64,000 bases of DNA, taken from positions 2,542,001 through 2,606,000 of the forward strand of contig NZ_CP076853.1 in assembly GCF_018987265.1 (NCBI RefSeq). The letters run 5' to 3'. Under the pieces are notes generated by a model. It made no database searches. It worked only from the letters and a program-made list of their open reading frames with translations, and was not told the DNA's origin. Source of the stretch: Rhizobium sp. WYJ-E13 (GTDB lineage: Bacteria > Pseudomonadota > Alphaproteobacteria > Rhizobiales > Rhizobiaceae). Made by a program: the position numbers and the translations under genes. This document shows positions 6,823 through 19,535 of the stretch, in pieces; position 1 is the stretch's first letter; each line of letters begins with the position of its first letter.

Positions 6823-7533
6823 TCAGGCGGCGCTTCGCATCGCGTTGGCCAGCCGAACAGCAACCGGCAGCCGTCCCGGTACCTTGCGTATGATTTCCTC
6901 TGCGAAACAGAGGGCATTTTCACGGGCCTTGTCGAGATTGCTGACGCGCGCCGGATCCATCGTATGCAGCGTGCCGCCGCAATCGAAAATGTCGCGAAAG
7001 GCCGAGCGTTCGATGATGGCCGTATCCAGAACCGACACATGGCGTTCGTTCAACAGGGCCTTGACGAGCTGCAGTGCGCGGGTGGTGACCATGGAGTTGA
7101 CGCGGGTCAGCACGACCGAATGGTCGATCTTGATGCCTGCCTTCTCCTCCAGATACTGGAGCAGCTCGAGAACCTGGGCACCGCCGCGGGCATCCATGGC
7201 GCAGCCCTGGATCGGGATCAGCACGTGGTCGGAGAGACCGACGGCCGTTGCCAGCAGCGGATTGCGCGCACCCGGCAGATCGATGATGAAATAATCGGTA
7301 TTGTGCTTGTTTTCGCTGATGTGCTGCGGCAGCGAGGCAGTCGTCACGAAATCGATGACGCTGATGTTGGGCACATGGCCGGAGATTTCGTGCCAGCGCG
7401 AAATCCAGTGCTGCGGGTCGGCATCGAGGATGGTGACACGGTAGCCCTGACGGGCCAGCTCGGTGGCAAGCAGCAACACGGCCGTGGTCTTGCCGGCGCC
7501 GCCCTTGGTATTTGCGAATGTGATGACTGGCAT
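6823..7533 (-). CDS. ParA/MinD-superfamily ATPase, orphan
   Basis: A 236-residue ATPase with the deviant Walker A motif KGGAGKTT at residues 10-17, the DADPQHW segment (Walker A') near residue 40 and DLPGARNPL (Walker B region) near residue 86. ParA-family proteins position DNA or protein cargo through ATP-dependent dimerisation. No ParB, origin or chemotaxis gene is nearby and the gene has its own terminator, so it is an orphan and not the chromosomal parA of a parAB operon. ATG at 7533 is chosen over an upstream in-frame start at 7572 because GAGGA precedes it and the family begins directly with the MPVITFAN strand. Confidence 0.88.
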   Translation of the reverse strand: MPVITFANTKGGAGKTTAVLLLATELARQGYRVTILDADPQHWISRWHEISGHVPNISVIDFVTTASLPQHISENKHNTDYFIIDLPGARNPLLATAVGLSDHVLIPIQGCAMDARGGAQVLELLQYLEEKAGIKIDHSVVLTRVNSMVTTRALQLVKALLNERHVSVLDTAIIERSAFRDIFDCGGTLHTMDPARVSNLDKARENALCFAEEIIRKVPGRLPVAVRLANAMRSAA

Positions 7534-7722
7534 ATTCTTAAGTCCTCGAAGGGAAATGGCGCGAGCCGGCATCGCTCGTTGTTAATCGCACAGTCGGAGC
7601 ATCGTGCGGTTAACCCATCCTTTCCAATCGTGGTTAACAAACTGTAAACACGCCCGCCGAAATTGCGGTCCGCATTTTTCGCATCATCAAAAATCAGGAT
7701 GGCCTGAAGCGCGAAAAACAAC

Positions 7723-7780: not shown

Positions 7781-8935
7781 TCAGAAGCAATCCCTAAACA
7801 GGGTCTTCGTATTTTCGAGCGTCAATGCAACCGGATTACCGCCGGCGCTCGGATCTTCGATCGCCATTGCGGCCAGTTCATCGATCCGGTCGGGGGTGAT
7901 TCCCATCGCGGTGAGATTTTCGGGAACGCCGAGTTCGGAGCGCAGCTTCAGCACGTAGTCGTAGAAGCCGTCGAAACCGCCGGATATGCCGAGATAGGCA
8001 GCCGCGCGCGCAACCTTCTCTTCGATGGCCGAGCGGTTGAAGCGCAGCACCGCGGGCATCACGACGGCATTGGTCATGCCGTGATGGGTATTGTAGACCG
8101 CGCCGATCGGGTGCGAGAGCGCATGGATGGCGCCAAGCCCCTTCTGGAAGGCGACAGCGCCCATGGCGGCTGCCGACATCATGTTAGCGCGCGCTTCCAG
8201 ATCCGTGCCTTCCTTATAGGCGCGCGGCAGGAATTCCTTGACGAGCCGCATGCCTTCCAGCGCGATGCCGGCCGACATCGGATGGTAGAACGGTGAAGAG
8301 TAAGCCTCCAGGCAATGGGCGAAGGCATCCATGCCGGTGCCGGCAGTGATGATCTTCGGCATGCCGACCGTCAGTTCCGGATCGGCGATCACGACGCCCG
8401 GCAGGAACTTCGGGTGGAAGATGATCTTCTTCACATGCGTCGCGGAGTTGGTGATGACGCTGGCGCGACCGACTTCCGAGCCGGTGCCGGCCGTCGTCGG
8501 CACGGCAACGATCGGGGCGATGCCTTCGATGCTCGCGCGTGTCCACCAGTCTCCGATATCCTCGAAATCCCAGACCGGGCGCGTCTGGCCGACCATGAAA
8601 GCCACGCACTTGCCGAGATCGAGGCCCGAACCGCCGCCGAAGGCGACGACACCATCATGGCCGCCATCGCGGAAGGCCTTGATTCCGGCTTCGAGGTTCT
8701 TTTCGTTCGGGTTCGGATCGACATCGGCGAAGATCGCTCGGCCGAGGCCGGCATCTTCGAGAATGTCGAGCGCGTTCTTGGTGATCGCCATCGCGGCGAG
8801 GCCGCGGTCGGTGATGAGCAGCGGCTTCTTCATGCCGAGGCTCTTGCAGGCGTCTGCCAGTTCCTTGATGCGGCCGCGGCCGAGCTTGACTGATGTCGGA
8901 TAGCTCCAGTTGGCGGTGATGTTGGCGCTGCTCAT
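7781..8935 (-). CDS. Iron-containing (type III) alcohol dehydrogenase
   Basis: A 384-residue group III alcohol dehydrogenase. The nucleotide-binding loop is FGGGSGLDLGK near residue 96. The metal ligands lie in TAGTGMDAFAHCLEAY and in HALSHPIGAVYNTHHG. The family oxidises primary alcohols with NAD(P). The ATG overlaps the TGA of the upstream aldehyde dehydrogenase gene (ATGA), showing translational coupling, so the alcohol and aldehyde oxidation steps are probably consecutive. A longer in-frame extension to 9136 runs antisense-like through the neighbour and is rejected. In context it probably oxidises the hydroxyl group of a gamma-glutamylated amino alcohol. Confidence 0.92.
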   Translation of the reverse strand: MSSANITANWSYPTSVKLGRGRIKELADACKSLGMKKPLLITDRGLAAMAITKNALDILEDAGLGRAIFADVDPNPNEKNLEAGIKAFRDGGHDGVVAFGGGSGLDLGKCVAFMVGQTRPVWDFEDIGDWWTRASIEGIAPIVAVPTTAGTGSEVGRASVITNSATHVKKIIFHPKFLPGVVIADPELTVGMPKIITAGTGMDAFAHCLEAYSSPFYHPMSAGIALEGMRLVKEFLPRAYKEGTDLEARANMMSAAAMGAVAFQKGLGAIHALSHPIGAVYNTHHGMTNAVVMPAVLRFNRSAIEEKVARAAAYLGISGGFDGFYDYVLKLRSELGVPENLTAMGITPDRIDELAAMAIEDPSAGGNPVALTLENTKTLFRDCF

Positions 8936-10317
8936 GCTGTAACTTTCTTCAGGTGGTAGGATTTCGGGCGCGTCAGGTTGTGGAAGCCGATGATCGACAG
9001 CGAGCCGCCGCGGCCGGTTTCCTTGACACCGGTCCAGCACAGAGCCGGATCGAGATAATCGGCGCGGTTCATGAAGACGGTGCCGGTTTCGATGTCGCGG
9101 CCGAGCCGCCCTGCCCGCTCGGCGTCCTTTGTCCACAGAGAGGCGGTGAGCCCGTATTGGCTGTCGTTCATCAGCGCCAGGGCCTCATCGTCACTCTTGA
9201 CCTTCATGATGCCGACGGCCGGGCCGAAGGTTTCTTCGCGCATGAAAGCCATGGAATGATCGACGTTGACGAGAATCTGCGGAGCGAGATAGGCACCCCC
9301 GTCATCGGCCGGAAAAAGCTTTGGATCGACGAGCGCCTTGGCGCCCTTGGCGACCGCGTCCGCGATCTGCTCGCGTACCACCCTGGCGAAGCGCTTGTGG
9401 GCCATCGGACCAAGCGTTGTCTCCGGATCGAGCGGATTGCCGAGCTTGTAGTTCGAAACCCAGGCGACCGACTTCTCGACGAAGGCGTCATAGAGCGATT
9501 CATGCACATAGATGCGCTCAATGCCGCAGCAGCACTGGCCGGAATTATAGGTGGCGCCATCCATCAACGTATCGACGGCGGCATCGAGATCGGCATCCTC
9601 CATCACATAGCCCGGATCCTTGCCGCCGAGCTCGAGGCCGAGCCCAGTGAAAGTGCCGGCCGCAGCCCGCTCCATCGAGCGGCCTCCTTCGACCGAGCCA
9701 GTGAAATTGATGAAGTTGAAGCTGCCGGCCGCAATCAGCGCCGAAGTCGTCTCGTGATCGAGAAAGACATTCTGGAACACATCCTCGGGCACACCGGCCT
9801 CGACAAAGGCCTGCACCAGCCGCTCGCCGACGAGCAGCGTCTGCGAGGCGTGCTTCAGCACGACGGTATTGCCCGCCATCAGCGCCGGCGCGATCGTGTT
9901 GATCGCCGTCATGTAAGGATAGTTCCAGGGAGCGATGACGAAGACGACTCCATGCGCTTCGCGCTCGATGCGGCGCTCGAACTTGTCGCTCTCTTCGACG
10001 ACGAGCGGCGCGAGGGCGTCCGCAGCGATCGAGGCGACATAGTTGGAGCGTTCGTTGAAGCCGCGATATTCGCCGCCATACTTGATCGGCCGGCCCATCT
10101 GCCAGGCAAGTTCCGGCACGACGACATCGGACATCTCGTTGAGACGGGCGACACCCTTCAGCACAAGCTGGACGCGATCTTCGAGCGGGCGCCTGGCCCA
10201 GGCCTTCTGCGCCTTGCGGGCACGCGCGACGGCTTCCTTTGCCGCTTCGAGCGAAAGCGCCGGACGCTCCGCATAAACGGAGCCGTCAACCGGCGAAATG
10301 CATTGGATCATTGTCAT
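8932..10317 (-). CDS. NAD(P)-dependent aldehyde dehydrogenase
   Basis: A 461-residue aldehyde dehydrogenase. Visible motifs are APWNYPY (cofactor pocket), FTGSVEGG, LELGGKDPGYV (general base Glu) and NSGQCCCGIERIYV (catalytic Cys among three consecutive cysteines). The ending MNRADYLDPALCWTGVKETG resembles the branch that acts on amino or gamma-glutamylamino aldehydes in rhizobial amine pathways. It is 99 bases downstream of the glutamine-synthetase-like gene and overlaps the alcohol dehydrogenase gene. The likely role is oxidation of the aldehyde made by that enzyme to a carboxylate. The substrate is inferred from context. Confidence 0.92.
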   Translation of the reverse strand: MTMIQCISPVDGSVYAERPALSLEAAKEAVARARKAQKAWARRPLEDRVQLVLKGVARLNEMSDVVVPELAWQMGRPIKYGGEYRGFNERSNYVASIAADALAPLVVEESDKFERRIEREAHGVVFVIAPWNYPYMTAINTIAPALMAGNTVVLKHASQTLLVGERLVQAFVEAGVPEDVFQNVFLDHETTSALIAAGSFNFINFTGSVEGGRSMERAAAGTFTGLGLELGGKDPGYVMEDADLDAAVDTLMDGATYNSGQCCCGIERIYVHESLYDAFVEKSVAWVSNYKLGNPLDPETTLGPMAHKRFARVVREQIADAVAKGAKALVDPKLFPADDGGAYLAPQILVNVDHSMAFMREETFGPAVGIMKVKSDDEALALMNDSQYGLTASLWTKDAERAGRLGRDIETGTVFMNRADYLDPALCWTGVKETGRGGSLSIIGFHNLTRPKSYHLKKVTA

Positions 10318-10416
10318 GATCTGAATCCTGTTTTCTTCTGAGCCGCAGGGAAAGACGCCTCGATTGATCCTCCGCAGGAGAACCCGGTCGGGCGACTTTC
10401 CGCTTCGGATATGTTC

Positions 10417-11781
10417 TTAAGCTCTCTCGAAGCCGCGCGCCACTTCCCAATCCGTGATGCGGCGGTCGTATTCTTCCTGCTCCCATTCGGCAGCGCGGGT
10501 ATAGTGGTCGATGACATCGTCGCCGAAGGCTGTGCGCAGCATCTCCGATTCCGTCATGGCCTTGGTGGCAGCCCGCAGCGTGCGCGGGATTTCGCGGATA
10601 TCCTTGCCGAAATAGGCGTCACCCACATAGGGCGCCTCCAGCTCCAGCTTCTTTTCGATGCCGTCGATGCCTGCAGCAAGCAGCGCTGCGAAGGCAAGGT
10701 AAGGATTGAGATCGGAGCCGCCGACGCGGCATTCGATGCGGATCGCCTTGGTTTCCTCGCCGCAGAGGCGATAGCCGGCCGTGCGGTTATCCTTGCTCCA
10801 GACGGCCTTGGTCGGCGCGAAGGTGCCGGCCATGAAGCGCTTGTAGGAGTTAATATAAGGCGCCAGGAAATAAGTGATCTCGCTCGCGTGGCTGAGCAGC
10901 CCGGCAATATAGTTCTGCATCAGCGGCGTCATACCATGATGGCCGGCATGATCGAAGAAGAGCGGTTTTTCTTCCAGGCTCCAGAGCGACTGGTGGATAT
11001 GCGAGGAACTGCCGGCGGCATTGTAATGCCACTTGGCGAGGAAGGTGATCGCCTTGCCCTTCGACCAGGCGATTTCCTTGCAGCCGTTCTTGATGATCGC
11101 ATGCCGGTCGGCCATGGTGAGCGCATCGGCATAACGCACATTAATTTCTTCCTGACCGGCCGACGCCTCACCCTTGGAATTTTCGACCGGGATGCCGGCG
11201 CCCTGCAGGCCCTTGCGGATCGCCCGCATCACCTCTTCTTCCTTGGTTGTCTGGAAGATATGGTAATCCTCATTATAGGCACTGGCGAGTTTCAGGTTGC
11301 GGTAGCCGGACGCCTGGGCCGCCTCGTAACTCTGGTCGAAGAGGAAGAATTCAAGCTCGGAGGCCATGTAGGCCTTCATGCCCATGTCCTCCAGCCGCTT
11401 GACCTGCTTCTTCAGGATCGCGCGCGGCGAATGCGCCACTTCCTCGTGCGTATGATGGTCCAGCACGTCGCAAAGTACGAGCGCCGTGCCTTCGAGCCAG
11501 GGGATGAGCCGCAGCGTCGAAAGGTCCGGCTTCATCGTATAGTCGCCGTAACCCTTTTCCCAGCTTGTTGCCTTGTAGCCGGAGACGGTTTCCATCTCCA
11601 TGTCGGTCGCCTGCAGATAATTGCAGCTGTGCGTTTCCTTCCAGGCGCTTTCGAGGAAAAATTCCGCCTGGAAACGCTTGCCCATCAGGCGCCCCTGCAT
11701 GTCCACCTGGCAGGCGAGCACCGTATCGATGCGCCCGTCGGCAACGTCCTGTCTGAGATCGTCGAGAGTATAGCTGCTCAT
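10417..11781 (-). CDS. Glutamine-synthetase-family gamma-glutamyl-amine ligase
   Basis: A 454-residue protein of the glutamine synthetase fold, in the PuuA/GlnA-like group that ligates glutamate to an amine other than ammonia. Conserved elements are MASELEFFLF near residue 140 (metal-binding Glu), the nucleotide and glutamate loop KWHYNAAGSSSHIHQSLW near residues 250-267, and RIECRVGGSDLNPYLA near residue 345. Housekeeping GlnA normally has NGSGMHCHQS-like sequence and an adenylylated Tyr loop, neither of which is obvious here. It sits between an amino-acid/amine permease and an aldehyde dehydrogenase, which is the order of gamma-glutamylation pathways for putrescine, isopropylamine or ethanolamine. 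GAAA/GGCGG-type weak signals precede the ATG. Confidence 0.87.
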   Translation of the reverse strand: MSSYTLDDLRQDVADGRIDTVLACQVDMQGRLMGKRFQAEFFLESAWKETHSCNYLQATDMEMETVSGYKATSWEKGYGDYTMKPDLSTLRLIPWLEGTALVLCDVLDHHTHEEVAHSPRAILKKQVKRLEDMGMKAYMASELEFFLFDQSYEAAQASGYRNLKLASAYNEDYHIFQTTKEEEVMRAIRKGLQGAGIPVENSKGEASAGQEEINVRYADALTMADRHAIIKNGCKEIAWSKGKAITFLAKWHYNAAGSSSHIHQSLWSLEEKPLFFDHAGHHGMTPLMQNYIAGLLSHASEITYFLAPYINSYKRFMAGTFAPTKAVWSKDNRTAGYRLCGEETKAIRIECRVGGSDLNPYLAFAALLAAGIDGIEKKLELEAPYVGDAYFGKDIREIPRTLRAATKAMTESEMLRTAFGDDVIDHYTRAAEWEQEEYDRRITDWEVARGFERA

Positions 11782-11924
11782 GATTCATCCGCCTGAAATT
11801 GAAACCGGGAAATCGGGACAACGAAACGGCATGCGACCGCCGGGATCAACACGTTCGATGCCTTTTCGTTGAACCGTGATGGGGCCGCCGGAGCGGCCCC
11901 ATCGTGTAAGGGGGAAGCTCCTTT

Positions 11925-13475
11925 TCAGACTTCGCCAACCGCCGCCTCCGCGGCCGCGATTTCAGCCTGGCGTTTAGCAATCGCCTCGCCGATCGGCGGC
12001 CCCTTGAAGCGGCGGTTCTCGAATGCGAACCAGACGATAGCGGTCAAGACGAGGAAGCCTACAGTGATTTCCAGCGCCCAGTCGTTCGGCGGCTGAATGC
12101 CGATGTAGAAAATCAAAGCCATCGACAGGATGGCGAGAACGGCAACCACTTTATACAGCCCGATTCCCATATTCCAGGGTCCCATCTTCGGCCATTTCGC
12201 TGTTCCTATCGAGATGAGGCCGAGAGCGATCGGCACAACGAAGGACAGGAACAGGAAGATGACCGTGCACGATACGACGATCGAATAAGCAGGGGTACCG
12301 GCAATGGTAATCGCCGAGGTAAACCAGACAAAGAGCACGGAAAGGATCGAGCCCGTCCAGATGGCTGCGACCGGCGTGCGGAAGCTCGGGCTGACCTTGG
12401 CGAGGACCGAGGACGCCGGAAGCCCCTTGTCACGCGAGAAGGCAAAGATCATTCGCGAAAGCGAGGTGACCGTCGCAAGTCCACACAGGAACTGCGAGAC
12501 GAATATCAGCACGTAAAGAATGGTTTTGATCGTCGGGTTGACCTGCGCGTCCATCGCCCAGAAGAACACGTTCCAGCCCTGTTTTGCTGCATCGTCCATG
12601 TTCGGGATCATCAGCACGAAGGCACACAGCATGAGATAGCCGAAAAGCGCCGACCAGAGAACCGAGGAAACCATGCCACGCGGCACGGAGACGGCGGCCT
12701 TGACGGTCTCCTCCGAGGTATGCGCAGAGGCGTCATAGCCGGTGATGGTGTAGACCGGCAACAGCAGGCCGAGCAGGAACGCCATGCCGGTCGAGACGGT
12801 GGCCGGCCAGACGAGCGATGCACCTTCGGTGCCCGTATAGTTGGCGAAGGTGAAAAGCCGAGAAACATCCCAGCTCGAGGCAGCAGCCAAGCAGACGATC
12901 GTCAACAGAATAGCTGTTGCAAAGATCAGATATCCCGAAAAATCGGTCAGCTTGGCGGTCAAGCCGATGCCGAAATGGTTGATGCCGGCCTGCAGCGCAG
13001 TGATGATCGCCACGAAGACGACACGATGAAGGAGCGTGTCCTCTATGCCGAACTGCGGCCCGAAGGCCCCGAAGAAGAAGTAGAAGGTGCCGACATTGAT
13101 GGCACCGAGCACGGTGACGAGCCCGAGAAGGTTGAGCCAGGCCGACAACCAGCCAGTGAAACGGTTGCCGAGGATCGAGCCCCAATGATAGAGACCGCCG
13201 GCTGTCGGATAGGCGGAGCCGATTTGCGCGAGGCCGAGGGCGAAGATGAACGATATCAGGCAGCCGAGCGGCCAGCCGAGGCCGATCGCCGCTCCTCCCG
13301 CACCCGCTGTCGCCTGCCCGAGCGAATTGATGCCGCCGGAGAGAATGCAGATGATCGAAAACGAGATTGCAAAGTTCGAAAACGAGCTCATCCGCCGTTC
13401 GAGTTCCTGGGCATAGCCCATGGAATGCAGGATATGTATATCCTGCTTCTTGTCACTTTCAGTATAGTCCGACAT
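11925..13475 (-). CDS. APC-superfamily amino acid/amine permease
   Basis: A 516-residue membrane protein with about 12 hydrophobic helices. The start (MGYAQELERRMSSFSNFAIS, then FSIICILSGGINSLG) is the signature of the amino acid/choline (ACT, GABA-permease-like) branch of the APC superfamily. It contains TAGGLYHW after helix 2 and ITGYDASAHTSEET in the middle, both conserved in this branch. The APC fold imports substrate with H+ or Na+. In this operon the likely cargo is the primary amine used by the downstream ligase. The hydrophilic C-terminus ends in an Ala/Glu-rich tail. It lies 120 bases downstream of the amidohydrolase-like gene. Confidence 0.9.
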   Translation of the reverse strand: MSDYTESDKKQDIHILHSMGYAQELERRMSSFSNFAISFSIICILSGGINSLGQATAGAGGAAIGLGWPLGCLISFIFALGLAQIGSAYPTAGGLYHWGSILGNRFTGWLSAWLNLLGLVTVLGAINVGTFYFFFGAFGPQFGIEDTLLHRVVFVAIITALQAGINHFGIGLTAKLTDFSGYLIFATAILLTIVCLAAASSWDVSRLFTFANYTGTEGASLVWPATVSTGMAFLLGLLLPVYTITGYDASAHTSEETVKAAVSVPRGMVSSVLWSALFGYLMLCAFVLMIPNMDDAAKQGWNVFFWAMDAQVNPTIKTILYVLIFVSQFLCGLATVTSLSRMIFAFSRDKGLPASSVLAKVSPSFRTPVAAIWTGSILSVLFVWFTSAITIAGTPAYSIVVSCTVIFLFLSFVVPIALGLISIGTAKWPKMGPWNMGIGLYKVVAVLAILSMALIFYIGIQPPNDWALEITVGFLVLTAIVWFAFENRRFKGPPIGEAIAKRQAEIAAAEAAVGEV

Positions 13476-13595
13476 GACTTCCCCCTGTTGACAATCGCCC
13501 GCGGGATTGCGACCGATCCTATGCCAATAGTGCCCGTGGCTTTTCGCCTTGCGGGCTGTTCGCAGTTAAACTGCTCCCCGGGGTCTTCTTTTTAT

Positions 13596-14381
13596 TCAGG
13601 CATCCAGACTCTGCTGGAGAAGCCTTGTGAGATAGTCGGCCACGACCCCTTGGCCGGTATCGTCTGCGATGAGGTCGTTGCGGACCTCGATCATGACATT
13701 GCGAAGCCCATTGGAAATGCCATGCAGGATCAGCGTGTGCGTCACGCCGTCCTCAGGCCCGTAGGGTTCGTTGCGTTCGGTACGGTAGAGCGGCGCCTCG
13801 GCCGCAAAATCCAGCATGCGGTCGGCAAGGCGGCTGTCCTCGTCGTGGAGGATGCCGAGTTCGACAGCGCGCTGCCGGCCATTATAGATCGGCGTAAAAC
13901 TGTGGATCGTCACGATCACGCTGTCTTGCCCGCTTGCCTGACGGTCGCGGATCAGGGCGCGAACGGCATCGTGAAACGGCAGGTAGAGAGCTTCCGTGCG
14001 GGCGTTGCGCTCGCCCTCGGTCAAATCCTTGTTGCCGGGAATCGTATAGATCTCGCTGACCTCGGGCATGGCGCCGGGCGAACTCGGCGGCCGGTTGCAG
14101 TCATAAATCAGCCGCGAGAAGCGCTGGTAGATGAGTGTCGCATCCAGCGCTGCCGAAATGGCGCGGGCAACGGCAAGCGCACCCGGATCCCAGGCGATGT
14201 GGCTCGAAAGCGCTTCCTCGGAAAGGCCGAGATCGCCGAAATGTTCAGGAAGCGTGCGGGATGCGTGCTCGCAGATGACGAGCACCGGACTCTTGCCGTG
14301 AGCACGTTCGATTGCCACGCATTCGCCGTCGTCATCGCTGAGAATTTTGGCCTGAGCCAGCACCAAAGGCGCTTCCCCCAT
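13596..14381 (-). CDS. N-formylglutamate amidohydrolase-family protein
   Basis: A 261-residue member of the FGase (N-formylglutamate amidohydrolase, HutG-like) family, with CEHASRTLPEHFG near residue 38 and IHSFTPIYNGRQRAVELGIL near residue 150, which contain the metal-binding Glu and His residues. No histidine-utilisation (hut) genes are near, so formylglutamate from histidine is not the obvious substrate. As first gene of an operon with a gamma-glutamyl ligase, it could cleave a gamma-glutamyl or N-acyl glutamate intermediate; this is inference. It starts the minus-strand operon, 162 bases from the divergent RpiR-type regulator gene. Confidence 0.85.
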   Translation of the reverse strand: MGEAPLVLAQAKILSDDDGECVAIERAHGKSPVLVICEHASRTLPEHFGDLGLSEEALSSHIAWDPGALAVARAISAALDATLIYQRFSRLIYDCNRPPSSPGAMPEVSEIYTIPGNKDLTEGERNARTEALYLPFHDAVRALIRDRQASGQDSVIVTIHSFTPIYNGRQRAVELGILHDEDSRLADRMLDFAAEAPLYRTERNEPYGPEDGVTHTLILHGISNGLRNVMIEVRNDLIADDTGQGVVADYLTRLLQQSLDA

Positions 14382-14543
14382 CGCTTAATAAATTCTTTAT
14401 AAGAAAAGAATTCTTCAGGTTCGCAGCAGTGTCAAGCGCACTCTGAAAATTTCTTTTCATGACAGTCATTGACATGGATTGTGACAGCGTTGTTAACTTT
14501 CAATGGGAAAGTGGCGCTAGACCATCCCGGGGAGCAAAATCAC
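14382..14543. promoter_or_regulatory. Divergent promoter/operator region of the amine operon and its RpiR regulator
   Basis: An AT-rich intergenic region between two divergent starts. It holds a perfect spaced palindrome, TGAAAA-TTTC-TTTTCA at 14444-14459, and a perfect 10-bp palindrome, AAGAATTCTT at 14406-14415. Both resemble the A/T-rich GAAA...TTTC operators common for RpiR-type regulators. On the minus strand three TGTCA elements (14459-14487) are spaced 12 and 10 bases apart, which faintly recalls a Pho box pointing to the amidohydrolase gene. The start points are not known. Confidence 0.5.
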
Positions 14544-15416
14544 GTGAGTGTCGCGGCCAAGACCGTTTCGGACGTCATTCATTCGTATTTCGGCGTGCTT
14601 ACGCGCGCCGAGAAGCAATTGGCTGAAAGCCTGCTCGACAACTACCCCGTCTCCGGTCTCGGCAGCATCACCACCATCGCCGAAAATGCCGGCGTCTCCA
14701 CGCCGACGGTCGTGCGCATGGTCCAGAAGCTCGGCTACAAGGGCTATCCGGACTTCCAGCAGCATCTGCACCAGGAAGTCGAGGCAACGATTTCCAACCC
14801 GATCGCCAAACACGATCGCTGGGCTCAGAACGCGCCGGGCACCCATATATTGAACCGCTTCGCCGATGCCATCATGGGCAATCTGCGCCAGACGCTCTCC
14901 GATCTCGATACGGCAACCTTCGACAGCGTCGCCGCCCTGCTCTCGGACCGCAAGCGCACGCTCTATTTCGTTGGCGGACGTATCACCGGCGCACTTGCCG
15001 AGTACTTCTTCACCCATATGCAGGTCATTCGCCCGAACACGGCGCTGCTCTCCTCCAACTCGTCGAGCTGGCCGCAATATGTCCTCAATATGAATCCGGG
15101 CGATCTGCTCATCATCTTCGATATCCGCCGCTACGAGCAGGAAATGGTGAGCCTTGCCACTGCCGCCCGCAAGCGCGGAGCCGAAATCATCGTCTTCACC
15201 GACCAGTGGGCTTCGCCCGCCGCCAAGCTCGCCCGTCACGCCTTTCGTGTACAGATCGAGGCGCCGTCGGCATGGGATTCCTCCGTCGTCACGCTCTTCA
15301 TCGTCGAGGCACTCATCGAAGCGGTGCAGAACTCGACATGGGACGAGACGAAGGAGCGCATGAAAACGCTGGAAGGCCTGTTCGAACAGACCCGGCTTTT
15401 CCGCAAACCCGGTTAG
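14544..15416 (+). CDS. MurR/RpiR family transcriptional regulator
   Basis: A 290-residue regulator. The N-terminal RpiR helix-turn-helix spans about residues 5-80 (LGSITTIAENAGVSTPTVVR, then MVQKLGYKGYPDFQ). The C-terminal SIS domain lies at about residues 120-260 (TLYFVGGRITGALAEYF, then SSNSSSWPQYVLN), which binds phosphosugars or other small ligands. The start chosen is GTG at 14544 with GGGGAGC just before it; an in-frame ATG at 14469 would add a poorly conserved leader. It is divergent from the amine operon and probably controls it. RpiR proteins controlling amine or amino acid catabolism have been seen, but the ligand here is unknown. Confidence 0.9.
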   Translation: MSVAAKTVSDVIHSYFGVLTRAEKQLAESLLDNYPVSGLGSITTIAENAGVSTPTVVRMVQKLGYKGYPDFQQHLHQEVEATISNPIAKHDRWAQNAPGTHILNRFADAIMGNLRQTLSDLDTATFDSVAALLSDRKRTLYFVGGRITGALAEYFFTHMQVIRPNTALLSSNSSSWPQYVLNMNPGDLLIIFDIRRYEQEMVSLATAARKRGAEIIVFTDQWASPAAKLARHAFRVQIEAPSAWDSSVVTLFIVEALIEAVQNSTWDETKERMKTLEGLFEQTRLFRKPG

Positions 15417-15606: not shown

Positions 15607-16710
15607 GTGATCTCTAACATTTCTCGACTTCTGTCGCTTTCTACTGCGATGATCGTGGCTTCGACCGCGATTGCTGCTGCAGAACCGAGCGCTGAACTTA
15701 TTGCTGCCGCGAAGAAGGAAGGCACGCTGACCACGATCGCCCTCCCGCACGACTGGTGTGGCTATGGCGACGTCATTGCCGGCTTCAAGGCCAAGTACGG
15801 CCTGGAAGTCAACGAACTGAACCCGGATGCCGGCTCGGGTGACGAAGTCGAAGCCATCAAGGCCAACAAGGGCAACACCGGCCCGCAGGCTCCCGATGTC
15901 ATCGACGTCGGTCTCTCTTTTGGTCCGTCCGCTAAGAAGGATGGCCTGATTCAGCCTTACAAGGTCTCCACCTGGGATTCGATCCCAGATTCCGCCAAGG
16001 ATGCAGAAGGTTACTGGTACGGCGACTATTACGGCGTTCTCTCGTTCCTCGTGAACAAGGACCTCGTCAAAGAATCGCCGGCCGATTGGGCCGATCTGAA
16101 GAAGAGCGATTACGCAAACAGCGTTGCTCTCGCAGGCGATCCGCGCTCCGCCAACCAGGCCGTCCAAGGCGTCTATGCTGCAGGTCTTTCCGCATCCGGC
16201 GGTGACGCAGCCAAGGCAGGCGAAGAAGGCCTGAAGTTCTTCGCCGAACTGAACAAGGCCGGCAACTTCGTACCTGTTGTCGGCAAGGCTGCTCCCTTCG
16301 CGCAGGGCTCCACGCCGATCATCGTCGCCTGGGACTACAACGCGCTTTCCTGGGGTGAAAGCCTGAAGGGCAATCCTCCCTTCGAAGTCGTCGTTCCGAA
16401 GACGGGCGTCGTTGCCGGCGTCTACGTCCAGGCCATCTCCGCGTTCGCTCCGCACCCGAACGCTGCCAAGCTCTGGATGGAATATCTGTATTCCGACGAA
16501 GGTCAGCTCGGCTGGCTGAAGGGCTACTGCCACCCGATCCGCTTCAACGATCTTGCCAAGAACAACAAGATCCCGAAGGACCTGCTCGACAAGCTGCCGC
16601 CGGCGGCAGCCTATGAAAAGGCCGTCTTCCCGACGCTCGAAGAACAGGCAGCAGGCAAGGAAACCATCACCAAGAACTGGGATTCCGTCGTCGGCGCCAG
16701 CGTCAAGTAA
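15607..16710 (+). CDS. ABC transporter periplasmic binding protein (Fe3+/2-AEP/polyamine type)
   Basis: A 367-residue periplasmic binding protein. Residues 1-25 form a signal peptide (ISRLLSLSTAMIVASTAIAA). The mature part begins with AELIAAAKKEGTLTTIALPH, the hallmark of the class I Fe3+/AfuA, 2-aminoethylphosphonate and polyamine-type binding proteins. Start is GTG at 15607 with GAAGGAG 6 bases before it. The following two permease genes and an ATPase gene complete the transporter. The candidate Pho box upstream suggests an organophosphate, for example a sugar phosphate (known for an AfuABC homologue) or a phosphonate, rather than iron. No iron-binding tyrosine pair was confirmed. Confidence 0.88.
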   Translation: MISNISRLLSLSTAMIVASTAIAAAEPSAELIAAAKKEGTLTTIALPHDWCGYGDVIAGFKAKYGLEVNELNPDAGSGDEVEAIKANKGNTGPQAPDVIDVGLSFGPSAKKDGLIQPYKVSTWDSIPDSAKDAEGYWYGDYYGVLSFLVNKDLVKESPADWADLKKSDYANSVALAGDPRSANQAVQGVYAAGLSASGGDAAKAGEEGLKFFAELNKAGNFVPVVGKAAPFAQGSTPIIVAWDYNALSWGESLKGNPPFEVVVPKTGVVAGVYVQAISAFAPHPNAAKLWMEYLYSDEGQLGWLKGYCHPIRFNDLAKNNKIPKDLLDKLPPAAAYEKAVFPTLEEQAAGKETITKNWDSVVGASVK

Positions 16711-16722
16711 CATCCGATCCTG

Positions 16723-16747
16723 CCTCTCCGCCCAAAAGGCGGGGAGG
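16723..16747 (+). other. Intercistronic stem-loop between binding-protein and permease genes
   Basis: A 10-bp stem, CCTCTCCGCC with GGCGGGGAGG (one G-T pair), around CAAAA, followed only by CTTTG. It lies 13 bases after the binding-protein stop and just before the permease gene. It is probably a partial terminator or mRNA 3'-end stabiliser that lets the binding protein be made in excess. Confidence 0.6.
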
Positions 16748-16782
16748 CTTTGTCACTCCGACGCCCCAGGATGAGCTTTTCC

Positions 16783-17676
16783 ATGAGCACCGTTTCAACG
16801 CCTATGGTGAGCAGCGCCCCCTTGATCAACAAAGACCGCGTGATCGACTGGCTGGGCATTGCACCCTTCATTATTTTCTCCCTGCTATTCCTGATCATCC
16901 CCACACTTTATCTCGTGGCGGGCGCCTTCCTTACGCCCGAGGGCGATTTCACGCTGAAGAACATCGGCGATCTCTTCACTCCATCCATTATCAGCGCCTA
17001 CTGGATCAGTATTCGCGTCTCGGTGGCGTCGGCTCTCGGCGGCGCGCTGATCGGCTTCTTCCTCGCCTGGGCCGTCGTGCTCGGCGGACTGCCCAGCTGG
17101 GTGCGCTCGACGCTTCTGACCTTCTCCGGCGTCGCCTCGAATTTCGCCGGCGTGCCGCTCGCCTTCGCCTTCCTCGCTACGCTCGGCCGCACCGGCCTCG
17201 TGACCGTTTTCTTGCGGGAATGGTTCGGCTTCAATCTCTATGGCACCGGCTTCAACCTGCTCTCCTTCTTCGGCCTCACCATCACCTACATGTATTTCCA
17301 GATCCCGCTGATGGTGCTGATCCTGACACCGGCGCTCGACGGCATGAAGAAGGAATGGCGCGAAGCCGCTGAGATCCTCGGCGCCACCAACCGTCAATAC
17401 TGGACGATGGTCGCCCTGCCGATCCTCTGGCCGAGCCTGCTCGGCACAGCGCTGCTGCTCTTCGCCAACGCCTTCGGCGCCATCGCTACCGCTTTCGCGC
17501 TGACAGGCAGCTCACTGAACATCGTGCCAATCCTGCTCTACGCGCAGATCCGTGGTGACGTTCTGCATAACGCCAACCTTGGATACGCCATCGCGCTCGG
17601 CATGATCGTCATAACCGGCGTCTCCAATATCCTTTACCTCATGCTGCGCATGCGCGCCGAACGGTGGCAGAAATGA
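16783..17676 (+). CDS. ABC transporter permease 1
   Basis: A 297-residue inner-membrane permease with six predicted helices and the cytoplasmic EAA-type loop EWREAAEILGATNRQYWTMV near residue 200. It is of the PotB/FbpB (binding-protein-dependent, type I) family. The start is uncertain among TTG at 16750, ATG at 16771 and ATG at 16783; the last has AGGATGAG at a good distance. The gene overlaps the next permease gene by 13 bases, so the two subunits are coupled. Confidence 0.9.
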   Translation: MSTVSTPMVSSAPLINKDRVIDWLGIAPFIIFSLLFLIIPTLYLVAGAFLTPEGDFTLKNIGDLFTPSIISAYWISIRVSVASALGGALIGFFLAWAVVLGGLPSWVRSTLLTFSGVASNFAGVPLAFAFLATLGRTGLVTVFLREWFGFNLYGTGFNLLSFFGLTITYMYFQIPLMVLILTPALDGMKKEWREAAEILGATNRQYWTMVALPILWPSLLGTALLLFANAFGAIATAFALTGSSLNIVPILLYAQIRGDVLHNANLGYAIALGMIVITGVSNILYLMLRMRAERWQK

Positions 17677-18461
17677 AAGCTCAACGTCTCGGAGCCTGGA
17701 TCGCCATTATCATCGGCGCGTCCTATTTCGTCATTCCACTGATCGGCACCATCGAGTTTTCGCTGCGTATGCGTCGCGGCACCTATAGTTTCGACGCCTA
17801 TCAATCAGTCTTTTCGGACGTCCAGTTCCGCGAGACCTTCGGTTACTCCATGCTGATGGCGGCGCTTACCATCGTCTTCGGCATGCTGCTCGTCGTGCCG
17901 ACGGCCTATTGGGTGCGCCTGCGCCTGCCGCAGATGCGTCAGGTCGTCGAGTTCATCACGCTGCTGCCGCTTGTCATTCCGGCGATCGTCATCGTGTTCG
18001 GCTACCTGCGCATGTACAACTCGTCATCGATCCTGCCGCTGACGGGCTATACGACGGGCACGAACATCCTGCTGGTCATCTCCTACATCACGCTCTCGCT
18101 GCCCTACATGTACCGCTCCGTCGATACCGCCATGCGCGCCATCGACGTGCGCACGTTGACGGAGGCAGCCGAAAGCCTCGGTGCGAGCTGGATGACGATC
18201 ATGTTCAAATGCATCTTCCCGAATGTCATGAGCGGCGTGCTCTCGGGCGCCTTCATCACGCTCGCTATCGTCATGGGCGAATTCACCTTCGCAGCACTTC
18301 TGAACCGTCCAGCCTTCGGTCCCTACCTGCAACTCGTCGGTGCAAACAAGGCCTATGAACCCTCCGCGCTTGCGGTCATCGCATTCTCGATCACCTGGCT
18401 CAGCATGGGCCTGCTCAACCTCGTTTCTCGCTTTGGCAAAGCCCGCCCGGCTAAAGCATAA
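17664..18461 (+). CDS. ABC transporter permease 2
   Basis: A 265-residue permease of the PotC type with six hydrophobic segments. The EAA loop is LTEAAESLGASWMTIMFKCI near residues 165-185. It starts inside the end of permease 1 and forms the heterodimeric membrane pore with it. The ATG at 17664 is used; an in-frame ATG at 17673 is also possible. Confidence 0.9.
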   Translation: MAEMKAQRLGAWIAIIIGASYFVIPLIGTIEFSLRMRRGTYSFDAYQSVFSDVQFRETFGYSMLMAALTIVFGMLLVVPTAYWVRLRLPQMRQVVEFITLLPLVIPAIVIVFGYLRMYNSSSILPLTGYTTGTNILLVISYITLSLPYMYRSVDTAMRAIDVRTLTEAAESLGASWMTIMFKCIFPNVMSGVLSGAFITLAIVMGEFTFAALLNRPAFGPYLQLVGANKAYEPSALAVIAFSITWLSMGLLNLVSRFGKARPAKA

Positions 18462-18473
18462 GGTATTTGGCTC

Positions 18474-19535
18474 ATGTCCTTTCTTACGCTGACCAATATT
18501 CAGAAATCCTTCGGCCAGACTCAGGTCGTCAAGAACTTCAACATGAACATCGAGAAAGGGGAATTCGTCTCTTTCCTCGGACCGTCAGGCTGCGGCAAGA
18601 CGACCGTTTTGCGCATGATCGCCGGTTTTGAGACGCCGACCGGTGGCACGCTGACGATCAATGGCAAAGACCAGAGCTCGCTGAAACCGAACCAGCGCAA
18701 TATCGGCATGGTTTTTCAGGCCTATGCGCTGTTCCCCAACATGTCCGTGCATGACAACGTCGCCTTCGGCCTCAAGGTCGCGGGTGCTCCGAAGCCTGCG
18801 ATCGACGCCCGCGTCAAGGAAATGCTCGGCCTGATCAAGCTCGATCACCTGGCAGACCGCTTCCCTTACCAGATGTCGGGTGGCCAGCAGCAGCGCGTAG
18901 CACTCGCCCGCGCCCTTGCCGTCAAGCCGCAGGTCCTGCTGCTCGACGAGCCGCTGTCCGCTCTCGACGCCAAGATCCGCGTTTCGCTGCGCGAGGAAAT
19001 CCGCCAGATCCAGCAGTCGCTCGGCATCACCACGGTATTCGTCACGCACGACCAGGAAGAAGCGCTTTCGATCTCCGACCGCATTGTCGTCATGAACGCT
19101 GGCAAGGCAGACCAGATCGGCACGCCCTTTGAGATCTACAACACGCCGGCAACGCGCTTCGTCGCATCCTTCGTCGGCACGTTGAATCTCATCGAAGCCA
19201 AGGTTGTCGACCCCGACAGCAACCGGATCCAGATCGGTGATCAGGCTGTGACGCTGAAACAATCTGTCCAGACCTACAAGGCCGGCGATACCGTTCAGCT
19301 CGCACTCCGTCCCGAAGCCGGTTCGCTTGCCGAAAGCACACACAGCGATACGGCTCTGACCGGTCAGGTCGTCTCCGCCCACTTCCTGGGTTCTGTCATC
19401 CGAACCCGAATGAATGTCGGCGGCAACGTCATCTCCTTCGACATGTTCAACAGCCCCGGCGTCACCCCGCCGGCTGCTGGCGAAACCGTGACGCTCCGCT
19501 TCATGGCCGCCGATCTGCTCGTCATCCGCGATTGA
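18474..19535 (+). CDS. ABC transporter ATP-binding protein
   Basis: A 353-residue ATPase of the PotA/FbpC/UgpC group. Walker A is GPSGCGKTT near residue 40, the signature is MSGGQQQRVALARAL near residue 136, and Walker B is VLLLDEPLSALD near residue 158, followed by the switch His in FVTHDQEEA. A C-terminal TOBE-like beta domain starts near residue 275. It powers import through the two preceding permeases; a strong terminator follows. Confidence 0.93.
   Translation: MSFLTLTNIQKSFGQTQVVKNFNMNIEKGEFVSFLGPSGCGKTTVLRMIAGFETPTGGTLTINGKDQSSLKPNQRNIGMVFQAYALFPNMSVHDNVAFGLKVAGAPKPAIDARVKEMLGLIKLDHLADRFPYQMSGGQQQRVALARALAVKPQVLLLDEPLSALDAKIRVSLREEIRQIQQSLGITTVFVTHDQEEALSISDRIVVMNAGKADQIGTPFEIYNTPATRFVASFVGTLNLIEAKVVDPDSNRIQIGDQAVTLKQSVQTYKAGDTVQLALRPEAGSLAESTHSDTALTGQVVSAHFLGSVIRTRMNVGGNVISFDMFNSPGVTPPAAGETVTLRFMAADLLVIRD

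Follow-up and report, generated by a model that had tools for sequence, protein, structure and literature searches.

A probable gamma-glutamylation operon for ethanolamine in Rhizobium sp. WYJ-E13, with an exchangeable transporter slot and a linked ABC importer

Which compound is consumed by an operon that joins an enzyme of the N-formylglutamate amidohydrolase (FGase) family to a glutamine-synthetase-like ligase and two dehydrogenases? The question is raised by a locus on contig NZ_CP076853.1 of Rhizobium sp. WYJ-E13, analysed here within a stretch of 64,000 nucleotides (the window, in whose numbering positions are given). Five genes lie on the minus strand in the transcription order FGase-family hydrolase (14381-13596; PF05013, 150 bits, cut-off 28.9), APC permease in a transporter slot (13475-11925; PF13520, 166.6 bits), ligase (11781-10417; PF00120, 341 bits), aldehyde dehydrogenase (ALDH; 10317-8932; PF00171, 403.1 bits, cut-off 23) and iron alcohol dehydrogenase (ADH; 8935-7781; PF00465, 160.4 bits, cut-off 31.3). 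The last two overlap by ATGA at 8935-8932, and the gaps of 99 to 143 bases among the first four suggest that a single transcript is likely. On the plus strand, a divergent gene encodes an RpiR-family regulator with HTH_6 and SIS domains (longest open reading frame (ORF) 14469-15416); this frame opens with TTG, and the real start may lie downstream. A preliminary description of this DNA had given the five co-directional genes in this order, their ATGA overlap and the divergent regulator, all of which Pfam matches and coordinates confirm. The operon very probably serves ethanolamine catabolism by gamma-glutamylation.

How would such a route run? We infer that the APC permease would import ethanolamine, which the ligase would couple to glutamate at the expense of ATP; the iron alcohol dehydrogenase would oxidize the resulting gamma-glutamylethanolamide to the aldehyde and ALDH would carry this on to gamma-glutamylglycine; finally, the hydrolase, metal-dependent by fold, would release glycine and glutamate, so that glutamate would be recycled and no free amino aldehyde formed. 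Ethanolamine from membrane phospholipid would thus be converted into glycine with the aldehyde held on glutamate. The ligase is likely an ethanolamine gamma-glutamylase: it is 61% identical to Csal_0679 of Chromohalobacter salexigens (PDB 5dm3) and 60% identical to a Brucella melitensis chain (PDB 11zs), and it scores under the cut-offs of the GlnA, type III and PuuA models (PuuA, NF045547: 199.7 of 650 bits). The hydrolase, 56% identical to Agrobacterium Atu2144 (PDB 2odf), is likely a gamma-glutamylglycine amidohydrolase related to that protein; its H39, H160 and E232 are invariant in 121 of 121 aligned rows. ALDH is likely a gamma-glutamylacetaldehyde amide dehydrogenase, with N132, E229 and C263, which we take to be its catalytic residues, shared by 98% or more of 116 rows, and ADH likely a gamma-glutamylethanolamide dehydrogenase, in which 98% or more of 115 rows keep D203, H207, H271 and H285, presumably the metal ligands; PDB sequence matches single out no specific relative of either dehydrogenase. 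EutB (PF06751), of the eut ammonia-lyase route, has no match in this genome (98.11% complete), and the E. coli control is positive.

The C. salexigens ethanolamine pathway, with Csal_0678 as binding protein and Csal_0679 as ligase, reportedly goes back to Vetting and to San Francisco, both in 2015. In published passages that deal with this pathway, it comprises PF00120, PF00465, PF00171 and PF05013 (PMC9397018, Table 2), the same four enzyme families as in the window; C. salexigens differs in having an ethanolamine-binding TRAP protein (PMC4646407, PMC10132767). Related genes are described as demonstrated in C. salexigens and Agrobacterium tumefaciens C58 (PMC10132767, citing Vetting 2015). 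The closest match in layout is Phaeobacter sp. MED193 (MED193_10021-10056; Westermann 2023, PMC10132767), where an operon induced by phosphorylethanolamine lies beside RpiR in the order gamma-glutamylglycine amidohydrolase, transporter, ethanolamine gamma-glutamylase, aldehyde dehydrogenase and alcohol dehydrogenase; there, however, the TRAP transporter EtoVWX, a subtype that does not define the pathway, fills the slot held by the APC permease in the window, and the passages on that operon list no ABC importer (PMC10132767). The GlnA4 cluster of Streptomyces coelicolor shares the ligase and a proposed route to gamma-glutamylglycine, but a short-chain dehydrogenase and a glutamine amidotransferase appear in its figure legend, whereas the text speaks of the formylglutamate amidohydrolase family (PMC6529630). 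The operon in the window is thus very probably the rhizobial version of a known pathway, which a cited study is said to have shown for Agrobacterium, a member of this family. The chemistry that the preliminary description proposed, namely a ligase, oxidation of an alcohol and an aldehyde, and glutamate release by an FGase-type enzyme, with ethanolamine as a candidate, agrees with this pathway. Its view that an FGase in this role is unusual does not hold: PF05013 had already been listed for gamma-glutamylglycine amidohydrolase (PMC9397018, Table 2; PMC6529630), and the hydrolase is present at all 40 ligase loci examined. It illustrates that the family name N-formylglutamate amidohydrolase may mislead. 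In a literature search on Atu2141-2144 and 2odf, the PghL paper was the only relevant one found.

Is the five-gene arrangement kept in relatives? Of 151 genomes of the family, 110 have a ligase match with an E value no worse than 1e-100, and this route is therefore probably a common way of using ethanolamine in rhizobia and agrobacteria. Two sets of loci were compared: 40 drawn loci, hand-chosen from the 113 places matched in those 110 genomes, and 80 named loci, the best 80 of 553 confirmed, which were anchored on the Atu2144 hydrolase sequence and so are biased to that hydrolase. The sets share four loci with the same hydrolase DNA, leaving 116 distinct loci of 120; since the named loci belong to Rhizobium, Agrobacterium, Ensifer and allied genera, with four that coincide with drawn ones, the sampled family is taken to be Rhizobiaceae. 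Hydrolase and ligase are adjacent, with nothing or one transporter between them, in 40/40 drawn loci, and both dehydrogenases are present in 39; an RpiR match occurs in 38, at 32-94% identity, so that not all of these regulators need be orthologs. The incomplete drawn loci are L058 (lacking ALDH, ADH and RpiR) and L067 (lacking RpiR). The named loci hold RpiR in 80/80, the ligase in 77, ALDH in 76 and ADH in 75, genes being missing from L096, L106, L110, L111 and L144, all of which are cut by contig ends. The association of these genes exceeds chance. A. tumefaciens loci L085, L087, L091 and L138 carry all enzymes in the window order together with RpiR and the ABC importer, and differ in that their slot is filled by a EutP-like permease; no locus among the best 80 of the 553 bears the name C58. 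Two genomes each hold two diverged hydrolase-ligase-dehydrogenase clusters (L053 and L073 in G031; L066 and L067 in G010).

What varies is the transporter between hydrolase and ligase. The slot holds a TRAP transporter in 18 drawn loci, an APC permease in 13 and a EutP-like permease in 4, and is empty in 5; in the named loci the figures are APC 41, EutP-like 27, TRAP 9 and none found 3 (two of those cut by contig ends). On a ligase tree of 118 rows, at least 25 switches of slot type are needed, or at least 19 once empty slots are set aside; these counts come from a quick tree made with neither a mixture model nor a shuffled-label control. We read this pattern as interchangeable importers for one substrate, the APC permease of the window being a likely amine importer; among relatives, the binding protein of one TRAP transporter scores 508 bits with 4uab. 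Neither such exchangeability nor the linkage of an ABC importer described below was met in the literature passages on this pathway.

Could the chemistry be the same but the APC variant be devoted to one or more other short amino alcohols, such as 3-amino-1-propanol or alaninol? The APC permease is unlike the EutP-like and TRAP types, and substrate range is unreadable from sequence. However, identities to the window's ligase overlap between slot types (64-93% for APC loci, 80-85% for EutP-like, 62-85% for TRAP), and the slot changes so often on the ligase tree that this alternative is improbable. Much less likely still is an operon of the Puu (putrescine) or Ipu (isopropylamine) type: ligase, aldehyde dehydrogenase and permease are common to these routes and the PuuA model does match, but far under its cut-off, and the five genes include neither a monooxygenase nor an amidotransferase-type hydrolase, the kind of enzyme that cleaves gamma-glutamyl-alaninol in the Ipu route according to the relevant passage of PMC6776027. 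The contrast with Puu and Ipu drawn in the preliminary description was in this respect fair, even if the FGase role itself is not new. A histidine-degradation remnant, in which the FGase would deformylate N-formylglutamate and its neighbours would be unrelated, is scarcely credible: it has the family name and the Pfam domain in its favour, while the hydrolase reaches only 21.3 of the 278.75 bits required by the HutG model TIGR02017, a separate HutG-model gene of this genome (handle G000) lies on another contig (G000:C2:429732-430382, 398.5 bits), and the hydrolase accompanies the ligase at all 40 of the drawn loci. Puu and Hut readings are thus rejected by NCBIfam models, and Ipu by gene content together with PMC6776027. 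The genome has four FGase-family genes, one of them within the window; to this extent the remark that no hut genes are near is borne out. The two others are below the HutG cut-off (G000:C1:3326348-3327040, 110.7 bits; G000:C1:3288971-3289588, 24.7 bits).

Ethanolamine catabolism by gamma-glutamylation, the preferred reading, has to bear several points that weigh against it, besides the quick tree. (i) By sequence, the top solved match of the ligase is the Brucella chain, deposited as a glutamine synthetase, at 666 bits versus 636 for Csal_0679; given its 60% identity to the window ligase, 11zs may itself belong in the ethanolamine ligase clade and not among true glutamine synthetases. (ii) The top NCBIfam match of ADH is 4-hydroxybutyrate dehydrogenase, at 350.3 of 500 bits and so under the cut-off. 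(iii) The likeness of the hydrolase to gamma-polyglutamate (gamma-PGA) hydrolases ties, at its lower end (12.0), with that to cell-wall amidases. (iv) The window's APC permease reaches no NCBIfam cut-off (best TIGR00907, 206.4 of 598.3 bits), and two EutP-like relatives score 362.1 and 338.8 bits with the ethanolamine permease model TIGR00908, under its cut-off of 381.75. (v) The passages of PMC10132767 on the Phaeobacter operon do not state the Pfam family of its amidohydrolase. (vi) For this strain the case is built from sequence.

How might the operon be controlled? RpiR would act on the divergent promoter, and an operator-like stretch upstream of the hydrolase (14402-14459, minus strand) offers a candidate binding site. 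The divergent region contains the palindrome AAGAATTCTT (14406-14415), TTGACA (14430-14435) and the inverted repeat TGAAAA-N4-TTTTCA (14444-14459); the window has a single copy of this repeat, against none in 100 shuffles, and TGAAGAATTC occurs once in the window (chance 0.14). The 10-mer GAATTCTTCA was chosen as the commonest one preceding the hydrolase among the named loci, 76/80 of which have it; it recurs in 18/40 drawn loci, and these counts are not independent, because the loci are related. The more distant drawn loci (L054-L074, 21 in all) lack it with the sole exception of L055, and in those without it RpiR, where found, is 32 to 60% identical. In the 320 bases upstream of other genes of the drawn and named loci, respectively, no exact copy was found before the ABC binding protein (0/25 and 0/80), ligase (0/40 and 0/77), ALDH (0/39 and 0/77), APC (0/13 and 0/42) or EtoX (0/18 and 0/9), and with one mismatch allowed 15 of these stretches contain it. 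As no exact copy precedes the ABC genes, the motif lends no support to their shared control with the operon.

These genes form an ATP-binding cassette (ABC) importer (15607-19535, plus strand) beyond the divergent RpiR: an SBP_bac_6-type substrate-binding protein (15607-16710; PF13343, 93 bits), two permeases (16750-17676, PF00528 at 25.8 bits, slightly below the cut-off of 26.4; 17664-18461, PF00528 at 35 bits) and an ATPase with TOBE_2 (18474-19535; PF00005, 133.5 bits; PF08402, 44 bits). In many relatives the importer also lies near the operon; it was missed by the preliminary description, whose interpretation as a whole stands for its chemistry and falls for the unusualness it claimed. Of the 151 genomes, 85 have a close match to the binding protein (E 1e-60); 67 of these also have the ligase, and in 62 of the 67 the two are no more than 12 kb apart; in mapped loci the importer is found in several arrangements, beyond RpiR or beyond ADH, there in either orientation. 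The binding protein is present without the ligase (E 1e-100) in 18 genomes and the ligase without the binding protein in 43; the importer is linked to the operon, not essential to it.

What would a second importer bring in? A two-importer ethanolamine system is possible, if rather doubtful: a freely exchanged ethanolamine permease (APC, EutP-like or TRAP) would work beside the co-conserved ABC importer of the SBP_bac_6 type, which would take up either a compound that contains ethanolamine, such as glycerophosphoethanolamine or phosphoethanolamine, or ethanolamine itself when its concentration is low. The binding protein matches PDB 5t1p at 193 bits, with no named ligand there, and its neighbours in the 18 ligase-less genomes are diverse and give no substrate clue, in an automatic ORF table from which some genes were lost to longer shadow ORFs. 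Among the titles that the literature searches returned, none concerns an ABC importer linked to these genes, though such a report could still exist in print. The exchangeable slot and the linked importer are modest leads that pose a defined question on uptake.

In two of those 18 genomes, neither with a ligase match at E 1e-100, the binding protein gene is found beside a permease gene: at L161 (8993-11868) the permease is 72% identical to the window's APC permease and an iron alcohol dehydrogenase accompanies it, and at L165 (8616-10136) the permease is 88% identical to the EutP-like type. These are possibly decayed or transport-only versions of the locus, and the pairing kept there fits a self-standing transport module. 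Past the other end of the operon, a gene for a ParA/VirC1-like ATPase (6823-7572) follows ADH and has a relative in 72 of the 80 named loci, possibly mere synteny.

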